The notes beneath the pieces are model-generated. The model saw only the letters and a program-made list of their open reading frames with translations. It was not told where the DNA came from and made no database searches. Shown one piece after another: positions 30,535 through 35,494 of a stretch of DNA of 64,000 nt. Source of the stretch: Lachnospiraceae bacterium (lineage in GTDB: Bacteria > Bacillota > Clostridia > Lachnospirales > Lachnospiraceae); NCBI GenBank assembly GCA_003862155.1, contig QOUV01000007.1, forward strand, positions 1 through 64,000, given 5' to 3'. Position numbers and translations under genes: made by a program. Position 1 is the stretch's first letter. Each line of letters begins with the position of its first letter.

Positions 30535-31716
30535 TCAATACTCGCCTTTTCTATACTTCTTCAGAAGGTTGTTGATCCTGTCATAGGGATCTAGAAGGTG
30601 AGAAATCGAGCAGTCGTGATTTAAAGTATCGATAATGTAGGCGATGTACTTGCCCATGTCACAACTGATGTAGTAGTCCCTGGAGAGAAGTTCCGGTGTC
30701 TGATAAATGAGATTTGTCGTAACTACCTTATAGATGAGACCATCCTCTACGGCTTTGTCGAACTTCTCAAGACCATTTGTAAAGAGACCAAAAGTAGCAA
30801 CACAGAAGATACGTCTGGCTTTTCTCATCTTCAGCTGTCTGGCAACGTCTATCATAGATTCTCCTGAGGAGATCATATCGTCTACTATGATGACATCCTT
30901 GTCTTCAACTGATGAGCCTAAAAACTCGTGTGCAACGATAGGGTTTCTGCCATCTACGATCTTCGAGTAATCGCGTCTCTTGTAGAACATACCCATATCA
31001 ACGCCTAAGACTGTGGCAAGATAAACAGCACGGCTGGTACCGCCTTCATCAGGGCTTATGATCATAAGATGATCGTTGTCGATCTTTAAGTCCTTGACTT
31101 TCTTGCAGATACCTTTGATGAACTGATAGGCAGGCTGCACAGACTCAAAACCATGTAAAGGGATGGCATTCTGTACTCTCGGGTCATGGGCATCGAAAGT
31201 GATGATGTTGTCAACACCCATATTTACAAGTTCCTGAAGTGCCATAGCGCAGTCAAGAGACTCCCGCGATGTACGGCGATGCTGTCTGCTCTCATACAGG
31301 AAAGGCATAATGACGCTGATTCGGTTGGCCTTTCCGCCGACCGCAGCGATAACACGCTTCAGGTCACTGAAGTGGTCATCTGGTGACATATGATTTTCGT
31401 GACCGCTGAGAGAATAAGTAAGGCTGTAGTTCATAACATCGACCATGATGTAGAGATCTAAGCCTCTGACCGATTCATTGATCTGTCCCTTTGCTTCACC
31501 GCTTCCGAATCGGGGCGTTGAAATAGAAATCTTGTACGAATCCGTCGTGTAGTTGGCTTTGTCAACGACATCGAGGTGATCCGATTTGCGGTTCTTACGC
31601 CATTTGACCAGGTAGGCATCTACTTCGTCCCCTAAAGGTTCGCAGCTCTTCAGAGGTATGATACCGAGAGGGGCTACAGGTTTGCGTCTTGACAGAACAT
31701 CGTCATTGAGTGGCAT
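30535..31716 (-). CDS. prs: ribose-phosphate pyrophosphokinase (long clostridial form)
   Basis: Makes PRPP from ribose 5-phosphate and ATP for nucleotide, His and Trp synthesis. The 393-residue protein is longer than the usual 310-320. Motifs are the metal-binding segment ITFDAHDPRVQN (normally DLHA..Q), the PRPP loop VIIVDDMISSGESM, and the ribose 5-phosphate region. The extra residues are mainly at the N-terminus (RRKPVAPLGIIPLKSCEPLGDEVDAYL). GGAGGAA precedes the ATG. It is the last gene of the dnaD-dnaC-prs unit, 12 nt after dnaC, which ties nucleotide supply to replication genes. Confidence 0.92.
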   Translation of the reverse strand: MPLNDDVLSRRKPVAPLGIIPLKSCEPLGDEVDAYLVKWRKNRKSDHLDVVDKANYTTDSYKISISTPRFGSGEAKGQINESVRGLDLYIMVDVMNYSLTYSLSGHENHMSPDDHFSDLKRVIAAVGGKANRISVIMPFLYESRQHRRTSRESLDCAMALQELVNMGVDNIITFDAHDPRVQNAIPLHGFESVQPAYQFIKGICKKVKDLKIDNDHLMIISPDEGGTSRAVYLATVLGVDMGMFYKRRDYSKIVDGRNPIVAHEFLGSSVEDKDVIIVDDMISSGESMIDVARQLKMRKARRIFCVATFGLFTNGLEKFDKAVEDGLIYKVVTTNLIYQTPELLSRDYYISCDMGKYIAYIIDTLNHDCSISHLLDPYDRINNLLKKYRKGEY

Positions 31717-31728
31717 TTTGTTCCTCCA

Positions 31729-32709
31729 TTAATCTTTGGCAGGTTTCATGTCTTTTAGTTTGTTCTCGATCCTGCCATCGAAACCAAACAGATGATAAAA
31801 ATTATACTTTTCAGCGAGGCGGGAGAAGACTCTCTGTGAGTAGCGGTCCGAAACCTCGTTTAAAGTCAGATTGGTGGAAATGATCGTTGACTTTTCGGTC
31901 AGCAATCTCTCGTTCAGGAGGGAAAAAAGAGCGGATGCTGTGAATGTATTCGTAACTTCAGTCCCAAGGTCATCTATTATCAGAAGATCAGCCGAAAAAA
32001 GGCTGCTGTAGGCATAGTCATCACGGTTCTTTCTCGGATTAAATGAGTAATCTGCCATAACATCAAACAAGCGGACGGCAGACAAATAGATCACTGTATG
32101 ATCTGTCTTTATAAGCCTGCTAGCAATGCAGCTCGAAAGAAATGTCTTTCCCGAACCGGGTGTTCCGTAGAAAAAGAGATTCTTAAAATCGCTGTCAAAT
32201 GTCTCTACAAAACGCCGGCTCTGTGAAAATGCCTTGCTGGCACATTCGTAGGAGCTGATACCGGAACTGTCTTTCTTTGAAGTATAGCCGGAAAGGTCAA
32301 AATCCTCAAAACTGTCAGTGAGGATTCTCCTCATAACAGGCTCGTCCTTATAGATAAGATCGAGTGCGTATTTTTTAAAACAGTGGCACGGCTCGTCGTG
32401 ATTCTCACCAACATAGCCTGTATCGTGACAGTCAGGACAGTGGTAAGGCGGATCAAGGTAGTCCTCAGGATATCCGTGTTCAAGCAAGAGATGCTTCTCC
32501 TGATCGATAAATTTCGCTGTGAGTCCTTTGTAATTCATATGGAGACCACGTTTGCGGCCGGCACTCCTGAAAGAATCCTCGAGCTGAGAAAGTTCAGGTA
32601 TATTCTTCCGAAGCTCTGTCCGACGGGATCGGATCAGCTCGTCTCTGTCCTGCCTTGCCTCACGGTAAATCTGCATGATGTAGTTGTACTGAGTGTCTGT
32701 TAGTCTCAT
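31729..32709 (-). CDS. DnaC/DnaI-type helicase-loading ATPase
   Basis: The 326-residue AAA+ protein loads the replicative helicase onto DNA with the DnaD-like protein encoded just upstream. It has a helical N-terminus, a Cys/His cluster (YHCPDCHDTGYV then CHC, about 88-108) as in DnaC-family zinc sites, Walker A GTPGSGKTF and Walker B LLIIDDLGTE, and a sensor-like NERLLTEKSTIISTNL. Only 2 nt separate it from the upstream stop codon. Confidence 0.9.
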   Translation of the reverse strand: MRLTDTQYNYIMQIYREARQDRDELIRSRRTELRKNIPELSQLEDSFRSAGRKRGLHMNYKGLTAKFIDQEKHLLLEHGYPEDYLDPPYHCPDCHDTGYVGENHDEPCHCFKKYALDLIYKDEPVMRRILTDSFEDFDLSGYTSKKDSSGISSYECASKAFSQSRRFVETFDSDFKNLFFYGTPGSGKTFLSSCIASRLIKTDHTVIYLSAVRLFDVMADYSFNPRKNRDDYAYSSLFSADLLIIDDLGTEVTNTFTASALFSLLNERLLTEKSTIISTNLTLNEVSDRYSQRVFSRLAEKYNFYHLFGFDGRIENKLKDMKPAKD

Positions 32710-32711
32710 CT

Positions 32712-33914
32712 TTAAAAAGTGTTATTCTTCAGGAGCATGGCCTCAATGGCTTTGCTGTCGTAATCGTTCTTCTCAGAGTAGGAGTTAAAGCCGTTCTTCT
32801 TAGGAGCCTGTGTCTTACCGGAAGCAGATCTGGATTTAATCTTCTCTGAATGCTTCCTGTCGTCTTCGGCAGTCTGAGACAGGTCAGTATAGCCCTTGTC
32901 ATGCCAGGTGCTTAGGATCTCATTAACGTAGTTCCAGTTCGAAGTGCCAATGCTTGTCCGTGTGCGGTTACAGGCGTCAACTACCATCTCCTGCGAAAAA
33001 TGCCACTGGTTGAACCACTTGTCGATATATTCAAGCTCTGCCGGAGCGAGATTCCCAGAGACACCGAGTGCCTTCTTTACAGCAAGTGCGTTTGCACTGT
33101 GCTGCTTCTTCTCGTCCATGGCTTCCTTTACAGTATGGATGCCCTGCCTGTACCAGCTGATCGCGATCTTGTTCATGTAGTTCATGATGTTCATGTTCGA
33201 AGAACGCTTGCCTGCATCTAGTGTGCTGGTAATAAGGTAATCGATCATATCCTCGTTCATGCCGAGCTCAATATGCCAGTAAAGGATCATGTTCATGCCG
33301 TTGTTGTTCAGCTCTTTCCCGAGATAGCGCTCGGCAATAAAGAGAATCTGACTGAGCTCAGGATCGGAGTCGAGGTCGTAGCTGCTCATATCATGCTGGG
33401 CAGCAGGCGGAATCCCGCCTCCAATAGAGTCAGAATCTGCACTCACGGGAGAGTTTGTATCCTCGGATGAGGACATTATAGCAGATTTGGCAACCGTTTT
33501 CACAGCAGAATTGGAAACCGAATCAAAAGAGGTGGTTTCCTTACTGGCATGAGAAACAGGCCTGTCGCTTGTCAAATTAAAACTCAGCTGTCCATCATTC
33601 TCTTCTGTCACTTCTGTAGAGAGTGGCAGCATCTGAATATCGCAGAGCTCGCCCTCATCATCATAACCGAGGGTGACGAGACCTGCTGAGGAGAGCCTGT
33701 CAAGTGAAGTGCGGACTTTTCCCGCACTGATGCCAAGGCGCTCGGCGGCTGACGAGACAGAAAACACGACACCTGTACCGTAAATGCAGCGCAGGAGCAT
33801 AAGGTATACCTTCAGCTCGTCGCCGTTCAGACCGCTCATGTAGTGATCGATAAAATTATTTGAAATACACGTAACTGTGGCAAGTGAATCTGCGTGAAGA
33901 TTGATAGAAGCCAT
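32712..33914 (-). CDS. DnaD-domain primosome protein
   Basis: The protein (400 residues from the ATG at 33914, chosen for its AAAGGA site) has an N-terminal winged-helix region (MASINLHADS to about 110: GISAGKVRTSLDRLSSAGLVTL), a Ser-rich linker, and two DnaB_2/DnaD C-terminal domains: LSQILFIAERYLGKELN to AISWYRQGI, and LAPAELEYIDKWFNQW to WNYVNEILSTWHDKG with the family YxxxILxxW signature. DnaD proteins help DnaA and the loader open DNA and load helicase. The tandem DnaA boxes 95-200 bp upstream are therefore notable. Confidence 0.88.
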   Translation of the reverse strand: MASINLHADSLATVTCISNNFIDHYMSGLNGDELKVYLMLLRCIYGTGVVFSVSSAAERLGISAGKVRTSLDRLSSAGLVTLGYDDEGELCDIQMLPLSTEVTEENDGQLSFNLTSDRPVSHASKETTSFDSVSNSAVKTVAKSAIMSSSEDTNSPVSADSDSIGGGIPPAAQHDMSSYDLDSDPELSQILFIAERYLGKELNNNGMNMILYWHIELGMNEDMIDYLITSTLDAGKRSSNMNIMNYMNKIAISWYRQGIHTVKEAMDEKKQHSANALAVKKALGVSGNLAPAELEYIDKWFNQWHFSQEMVVDACNRTRTSIGTSNWNYVNEILSTWHDKGYTDLSQTAEDDRKHSEKIKSRSASGKTQAPKKNGFNSYSEKNDYDSKAIEAMLLKNNTF

Positions 33915-33944: not shown

Positions 33945-33953
33945 ATTATAACA
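33945..33953 (-). promoter_or_regulatory. extended -10 promoter of dnaD operon
   Basis: On the minus strand TGTTATAAT (33953-33945) is a perfect extended -10. The -35 position is a T-run. The transcript would start near 33938 with a leader of about 24 nt carrying the ribosome site. Confidence 0.65.
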
Positions 33954-34008
33954 CAAAGGATTTTTTAAAAAAAGTCGCGACCCTTCAACAACAGCGGTGT
34001 ACAGCCAT

Positions 34009-34114
34009 TGTGGATAATGTGGAAAACTTCGTGTAAATCTCTTGAATACGGCGTTTCAAATCCACACTCTTTTGTTGCTGCTTTTTACACAAAAAATGTG
34101 GATAAAGTGGATAA
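34009..34114. promoter_or_regulatory. DnaA-box cluster upstream of the helicase-loader operon
   Basis: The intergenic DNA has two tandem box pairs in the same orientation with no spacer: TGTGGATAA-TGTGGAAAA (34009-34026) and TGTGGATAA-AGTGGATAA (34097-34114). Two match the reverse of TTATCCACA perfectly and two have one mismatch. Weaker 7/9 matches lie at 34058 (AAATCCACA) and 34083 (TTTTACACA). The second pair ends at the murC stop codon. An A/T run (33961-33973) lies toward dnaD. This suggests DnaA control of dnaD-dnaC-prs or a DnaA-binding locus. Confidence 0.65.
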
Positions 34115-35494
34115 CTAGTCTTTAATGAGCGCTTCGCCCACTTTATAGATGTCTCCGGCACCCATAGTTATCAACAAATCTCCGTCGATAACATTTTTTG
34201 ATAAATATTTTTCAATCTCGTCGAAAGTCGGGAAACACTCGCACGGAGTTCCTAGTTCGCGGATCTTCTGGCAGAGGTCTATAGAATGTACTCCATAGAT
34301 ATCCTTTTCTCTGGCAGGGAAGATCTCTGCAAGTACTACCTGATCAGCGACTGAGAGTGCATTCGCAAAGTCATTCAAAAATGCCCTGGTCCTGGTATAG
34401 GTATGCGGCTGGAATACTACCACAAGCCTCTTGTGAGGGTATTTCTGTGCTGCGTCGAGTGAGGCCTTAACCTCTGTAGGATGGTGGGCATAGTCGTCAA
34501 TGACTGTAGCTCCGTGGTATTTGCCCTTATACTCAAAACGTCTCTTCGCGCCGCCGAATTTCTTTAAGCCATCCTTTATCTGATCGAGTGTAAAGCCAAG
34601 CTCTCTGGCTACTGCGATAGCCGCGAGGGCATTTCCAACATTGTGTCTTCCCGGAACGGACAGTACGATTTCTCCGAGGTCATCGCCAAATCCTACAACT
34701 TCAAAACGGGCTTCTCCGGTCTCATCGTAGCGGATATTCTCTGCATGGTAATCGGCACCTTCATTGAATCCAACAGTTATGACACGGGCCCGAATGCCAT
34801 CTACTATCTCTCTATAGTTCGGAATCTCGTCATTTATGATAACAGCTCCGTCTGCCTTAGTGTCAGCTGCAAACTGGTGGAAGCTGTTTCTAATGTCATT
34901 TATATCCTTAAAAAAGTCCAGATGTTCTGCTTCTACATTTAAAATAACACTGTATTTCGCATAGAGCTGGAGAAAGGAGTTCGTATATTCGCAGGCTTCG
35001 GTCAGGAAAAGATCGGAGTCGCCGACATGAATATTGGAATTTATCGCCTTAAAGATGCCGCCGATAGAGAGCGTCGGGTCTTTCGAACCTTCAAGCATAA
35101 TCTGGGAGATCATGCTCGAAGTCGTAGTCTTGCCATGAGTTCCGGCAACTGCGACGCTGTTCGGGTAGTGCTTCATGATCTGGCCTAAAAGCTGTGCGCG
35201 AGTCATCATCGGGATATTTTTATCCTGTGCAGCCTTGTACTCCGGGTTATCCGGATGGATAGCAGCAGTGTAGACTACACAGTCTATATCATCTGTGATA
35301 TTTGATGCGGCCTGAGGATAAAGCACCTTCGCACCGAGCTCAGTCAGGTGGCGAGTCAGATCACTTTCGGCCCTGTCTGAACCGCTTACTGTGAAATGCC
35401 TGTCAAGAAGTACCTCGGCGAGTCCACTCATGCTGATGCCGCCAATGCCGATAAAGTGTACATGTACCGGTTTATCGAAATCTATCTGATACAT
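34115..35494 (-). CDS. murC: UDP-N-acetylmuramate--L-alanine ligase
   Basis: Cytoplasmic Mur ligase of 459 residues (normal length) that adds L-Ala to UDP-MurNAc with ATP. Visible features are GIGGISMSGLAEVLL for UDP binding, GTHGKTTTSSM as the ATP loop, ACEYTNSFLQLYAKYSVILNVEAEHLDFF and the domain 3 YAHHPTEV segment. It is alone on its transcript, with DnaA boxes at its 3' edge. Confidence 0.97.
   Translation of the reverse strand: MYQIDFDKPVHVHFIGIGGISMSGLAEVLLDRHFTVSGSDRAESDLTRHLTELGAKVLYPQAASNITDDIDCVVYTAAIHPDNPEYKAAQDKNIPMMTRAQLLGQIMKHYPNSVAVAGTHGKTTTSSMISQIMLEGSKDPTLSIGGIFKAINSNIHVGDSDLFLTEACEYTNSFLQLYAKYSVILNVEAEHLDFFKDINDIRNSFHQFAADTKADGAVIINDEIPNYREIVDGIRARVITVGFNEGADYHAENIRYDETGEARFEVVGFGDDLGEIVLSVPGRHNVGNALAAIAVARELGFTLDQIKDGLKKFGGAKRRFEYKGKYHGATVIDDYAHHPTEVKASLDAAQKYPHKRLVVVFQPHTYTRTRAFLNDFANALSVADQVVLAEIFPAREKDIYGVHSIDLCQKIRELGTPCECFPTFDEIEKYLSKNVIDGDLLITMGAGDIYKVGEALIKD

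Follow-up and report, generated by a model that had tools for sequence, protein, structure and literature searches.

Tandem DnaA boxes in the gap between murC and the dnaD-dnaC-prs operon raise the question of why binding sites for the replication initiator stand upstream of helicase-loader genes. They lie in the window analysed here, a stretch of 64,000 nucleotides from a genome of the family Lachnospiraceae. Control of DnaA activity in Clostridia is largely unknown, as has been stated for C. difficile (PMC7561715). Here we describe the murC-dnaD gap as a likely two-module element that binds DnaA and regulates the dnaD-dnaC-prs operon, a reading based on sequence comparison. No earlier description of such a DnaA-box element between murC and dnaD was found in the open-licence papers and Rfam families searched, and the results suggest a link between DnaA and loader supply that is widespread in Lachnospiraceae and apparently undescribed.

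Sequence of the murC-dnaD gap

Between the murC stop (34115) and the dnaD ATG at 33914, the gap is exactly 200 bp long. This ATG is a better start than the TTG at 33956, which begins the longest dnaD open reading frame and adjoins the -10 element. The helicase-loader product gave weaker matches to DnaC and DnaI besides its match to NF005304. Coordinates of all features are listed in Table 1.

On the forward strand the gap contains TGTGGATAA-TGTGGAAAA (34009-34026) and TGTGGATAA-AGTGGATAA (34097-34114), two gap-free pairs in the same orientation, 88 bp apart from start to start. The transcribed (-) strand carries them as TTATCCACT-TTATCCACA ... TTTTCCACA-TTATCCACA, pointing to dnaD. On this strand the murC stop is followed by the first pair, a hairpin that closes with TGTGGATTT, a stretch of about 30 nt, the second pair, a stretch of about 58 nt, TGTTATAAT and the dnaD ATG. 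Three of the four tandem boxes match TTWTCCACA exactly, and box1 has one mismatch. Between the pairs lie the weaker forward-strand box TTTTACACA at 34083 and the inverted AAATCCACA. An earlier sequence-only reading of the window had reported both pairs with their spacing, the 200-bp gap and the presence of weaker boxes, all of which are exactly as it described; it did not recognize that the first pair belongs to a terminator-like hairpin with covariation, which starts at the murC stop.

The genome of 2.1 Mb contains 70 exact DnaA boxes, compared with 35 occurrences of the reversed control pattern. About 0.007 exact boxes per 200 bp are expected from the genome count, and three are present in the gap. 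The tandem 18-mer TTWTCCACWTTWTCCACW has three copies without mismatch in the genome, two of them in the murC-dnaD gap. The tandem boxes in this gap are not due to chance. The same box words are present in the rpmH-dnaA gap of this genome, and its DnaA keeps the recognition motif GGRDHST.

Table 1. Features of the murC-dnaD region, in positions of the window
Feature	Position	Strand	Remarks
murC	34115..35494	-	TIGR01082, 1.7e-145; stop codon abuts box1
DnaA box1, TTATCCACT	34106..34114	-	1 mismatch; directly 3' of murC stop
DnaA box2, TTATCCACA	34097..34105	-	5' base of hairpin
44-nt hairpin	34060..34103	-	base ATCCACA/TGTGGAT; RNA fold -16.8 kcal/mol, z = -1.97
Inverted box3, AAATCCACA on + strand	34058..34066	+	2 mismatches; hairpin 3' arm
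DnaA box4, TTTTCCACA	34018..34026	-	76 bp upstream of -10 start
DnaA box5, TTATCCACA	34009..34017	-	67 bp upstream of -10 start
-35-like T-rich hexamer TTTTTT	33968..33973	-	17 bp from -10; direct sequence
Extended -10 of dnaD promoter, TGTTATAAT	33945..33953	-	direct sequence
dnaD	32712..33914	-	PF07261 and TIGR01446; start ATG 33914 backed by relatives
dnaC/dnaI-like AAA+ helicase loader	31729..32709	-	NF005304, 2.3e-88, above cut-off
prs, phosphoribosylpyrophosphate synthetase	30535..31716	-	NF005299, 8.7e-179

Conservation in the genus and family

The family was sampled with 100 upstream regions, one per genus, drawn from the list of DnaD matches blind to the boxes; 99 were usable and, as the list was ranked by DnaD score, they lean to the better DnaD matches. 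In all 99 sampled genera, dnaD is preceded by the murC C-terminal motif. A tandem same-strand pair is found in the murC-dnaD gap of 85 of these 99 genera but in none of 4,950 shuffled gaps, and the mean number of exact boxes per gap is 2.68, versus 0.017 in the shuffles. The 18-mer double box occurs 0-4 nt past the murC stop with at most two mismatches in 71 of 97 genera, whereas shuffles always showed at least four. A separately gathered named set, which comprises Lachnotalea, Herbinix, Butyrivibrio fibrisolvens, Lachnobacterium and many MAGs and may overlap the 99-genus sample, has the tandem pair in 65 of 77 readable loci.

Genome contigs were searched with the loader alignment, the DnaD family alignment being too divergent. 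A strict composite pattern was detected in 110 of 299 genomes of the family, the reversed control never, and in 13 of 245 class-wide genomes, three of these 13 being Lachnospiraceae. In 56 genomes that match this pattern and have a placed dnaD, 64 matches were counted, of which 53 are upstream of dnaD and in its orientation; none of the 11 located elsewhere is 53-56 nt long.

Within the genus both pairs are near-fixed, standing at -164/-155 and -76/-67 from the -10 element in the nearest relatives. Conservation of paired boxes in relatives, which the sequence-only reading had named as support for its proposal, is thereby borne out, the architecture being kept genus-wide and in most genera of the family. 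The tandem pair is absent in 14 of the 99 genera, which indicates that the element can be lost. About ten genera have direct boxes without an inverted box, so that what the gaps share is the boxes and not the terminator.

The layout with direct boxes and no inverted box was observed in G017, G057, G063, G128, G161, G164, G168, G170, G230 and G276. Here the last box is placed about 5 bp past the pair, often as TTATCTACA or as TTATCCACA followed by AAAAAACC, and the gap is often short.

The dnaD promoter and other box sites

Ninety of the sampled genera possess an extended -10 element, TGCTATAAT being its commonest form. Relative to this element, the start of the last tandem pair has a median position of -87 (interquartile range -97 to -86), and the family consensus at the place of the -35 is T-rich (TTTtct). 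Among boxes up to 125 bp from the -10, 237 are in the orientation of dnaD versus 8 in the opposite one. Successive same-strand boxes are 0 bp apart in 170 cases and 3 bp apart in 39. The preferred distance to the -10 and the fixed locus lend support to the earlier suggestion that boxes at a loader promoter would link the initiator to primosome supply.

Helical phasing of the boxes to the promoter is not claimed, because the best period in a Rayleigh test was 9 bp, equal to the box length, and not 10.5 bp. A recurrent word resembling CCTTG-ATTTTACTGGG was noticed between the promoter-proximal boxes and the -35, sometimes within an inverted repeat (e.g. G074, G318).

The boxes might instead absorb or inactivate DnaA after they have been copied, in the manner of the B. 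subtilis clusters or of E. coli datA, with the operon being incidental. Several strong boxes outside oriC are what such a titration site would have, B. subtilis DnaA-box clusters act in this way (PMC5295017), and the site is origin-proximal in seven complete or near-complete genomes, at distances of 126, 139, 195, 254, about 286, 406 and 667 kb from dnaA. A sink, however, need not hold to one promoter, one orientation and a preferred distance from the -10, as the dnaD site does. Other tandem pairs in the genus are located at mntP/tyrS, in four near relatives including this genome, or at unrelated loci in other species. That the dnaD site stays while the other tandem sites move argues for a function tied to the operon, and for the same reason control of primosome supply fits better than pure titration. 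Titration with an incidental operon is accordingly considered unlikely, while titration and promoter roles of the dnaD site could coexist.

The mntP/tyrS cluster of this genome (G000) carries the identical 18-mer TTATCCACTTTATCCACA at contig C24:122939-123167 (locus L001 1501-1729). It sits between the divergent mntP and tyrS and is common only to the nearest relatives G002, G004 and G011.

The hairpin at the end of murC

A hairpin with box2 and the inverted box paired at its base was identified in 72 of 99 genera, and 66 of these hairpins span 42-45 nt. At least six T occur within the 12 nt after the hairpin in 69 of the 72 genera, and box1, which lies outside the stem, is kept in 60. The search had fixed the outer stem as [AT]TCCAC/GTGGA[AT], so its invariance is not independent evidence. 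In 34 genera with a hairpin of exactly 44 nt, stem positions 7-9 are paired in 99 of 102 instances, compared with about 52 when the partners are shuffled, and these positions covary between genera with several pair types. The continued pairing of these inner stem positions shows that the hairpin is real. When the gaps are anchored on box1-box2 alone, both boxes stand out by high information content, and that of the hairpin interior is low.

The window strain has preserved the stem, but box3 is followed by only the short T-run TTTGAAA, and a consensus scan detected no terminator; termination may therefore be weak in this strain. From its sequence, module 1, which consists of box1-box2 and the hairpin ending in the inverted box3, has the appearance of a murC terminator constructed from DnaA boxes, with a decayed T-run in the window strain. 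In the murC-dnaD gaps that were compared with Rfam, no match reached the gathering score, and the window gap gave weak sub-threshold matches only. The word TTTACATAA is present in the gap of 29 of 99 genera, typically just 3' of the terminator-like hairpin.

Module 1 might be an intrinsic murC terminator and nothing else, with a box-like stem base inherited without binding of DnaA. Such a terminator would account for the hairpin and T-run seen in most genera and for the start of the module at the murC stop, yet it leaves unexplained that box1 is kept although it lies outside the stem, and that information is concentrated over box1-box2 while the inner stem varies with compensation. Moreover, module 2, formed by box4-box5, carries the same word without needing a hairpin, and the window strain retains boxes and stem despite its decayed T-run. 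A terminator alone is therefore held to be improbable.

A role at the level of RNA appears highly improbable. DnaA would here bind boxes in the hairpin of the murC 3' RNA and tune termination, as was proposed for the rDnaA boxes of the E. coli his leader. A covarying hairpin would indeed be made as RNA, and binding of DnaA to RNA has been proposed in PMC10989985, but the same paper calls direct binding not proven, and module 2, being located upstream of the dnaD promoter, would normally stay untranscribed.

A secondary or alternative replication origin, for which DnaA boxes adjoining an A/T run might speak, was rejected and is given practically no chance, since GC skew remains close to zero or positive through 34 kb without reversal at the site or across the window, no DnaA-trio run follows the last box (at least four repeats in 0 of 96 versus 3.1 expected), an oriC-like box cluster lies at rpmH-dnaA on another contig (dnaA on C24, the window on C41), and the A/T run is the -35 region of the promoter. 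The sequence-only reading, which had called for inspection of GC skew, was right that this is not the usual dnaA-dnaN origin, and the A/T run that it noted beside the boxes includes the -35-like hexamer of dnaD.

Proposed function

From the directly observed boxes, their conservation, the covariation of the hairpin and the preferred promoter distance, we infer binding of DnaA, termination and control of transcription, and a sign of regulation. As a regulatory element of dnaD-dnaC-prs, the gap would work through both modules. In most relatives, module 1 would terminate transcription of murC; it probably also binds DnaA, and read-through from murC would thereby be cut off and the operon insulated. 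At module 2 a DnaA dimer or short filament would be placed upstream of the extended -10 promoter and would determine how strongly the helicase-loader genes are transcribed. In this manner, active DnaA may tune the supply of DnaD and of the loader, which DnaA needs at oriC. Activation is slightly favoured, because the boxes are upstream of the -35 and -10 and not over them; a DnaA filament or loop might instead act as a repressor.

In B. subtilis DnaD binds DnaA. A more specific and rather doubtful model is a DnaA-gated switch of terminator and promoter, in which the boxes of the murC terminator stem and the pair at the dnaD promoter together set helicase-loader transcription across Lachnospiraceae, and DnaD could feed back on its own promoter.

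A family-wide, position-fixed DnaA-box site at a helicase-loader operon would represent a concrete link between initiator and loader supply in major gut bacteria, and in a terminator stem composed of DnaA boxes a single sequence would have to satisfy two constraints.

Comparison with known systems

DnaA of E. coli prefers pairs of boxes that are 2-3 bp apart (PMC11317965). These double boxes resemble the sites described here in that tandem same-strand pairs are the functional DnaA unit, but their spacing differs from that in Lachnospiraceae gaps, which is mostly 0 bp with 3 bp second commonest, and this counts against the proposed reading.

As described in PMC10950094, transcription is blocked or attenuated by DnaA at asnC and at datA/glyV-X-Y of E. 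coli. The asnC terminator with its DnaA roadblock (Schaefer and Messer 1988, 1989, as cited there) is alike in that RNA polymerase is halted by DnaA bound to boxes where a transcription unit ends. Unlike at asnC, the murC-dnaD box supplies the base of the stem in a hairpin that covaries and occurs in most sampled genera, and a second pair serves the next promoter. At datA with the glyV-X-Y terminator a box likewise overlaps a terminator/attenuator upstream of the cluster and read-through is controlled (PMC10950094); datA, however, needs IHF and inactivates DnaA, whereas the murC-dnaD cluster precedes a helicase-loader operon.

The clusters and DnaA-regulated promoters of B. subtilis, e.g. sda, are similar as titration sites or promoter elements outside oriC (PMC5295017, PMC4447404). 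The strongest DnaA regions named in the excerpt of PMC4447404 are without helicase-loader genes, which counts against the reading of the gap as a loader control site. In Caulobacter DnaA affects the helicase gene dnaB, which belongs to the DnaA regulon in the part of PMC8203912 consulted, and DnaA is thus tied there, too, to transcription of a gene for the helicase step. The Caulobacter case differs in that dnaB encodes the helicase and not the loader, the organism belongs to another phylum, and that part of the paper describes no hairpin module.

Additional boxes in the genome

Three exact DnaA boxes occur within 225 bp at contig C40:101205-101429 of this genome (locus L263 3706-3930), upstream of an open reading frame which, judged by eye, resembles an OGG/AlkA-type DNA glycosylase. 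In the window, a one-mismatch box, TTATCAACA, lies within murC at 34168-34176 (+) and recurs in relatives, most likely because the sequence encodes the conserved MurC end GDLLITMGAGD.
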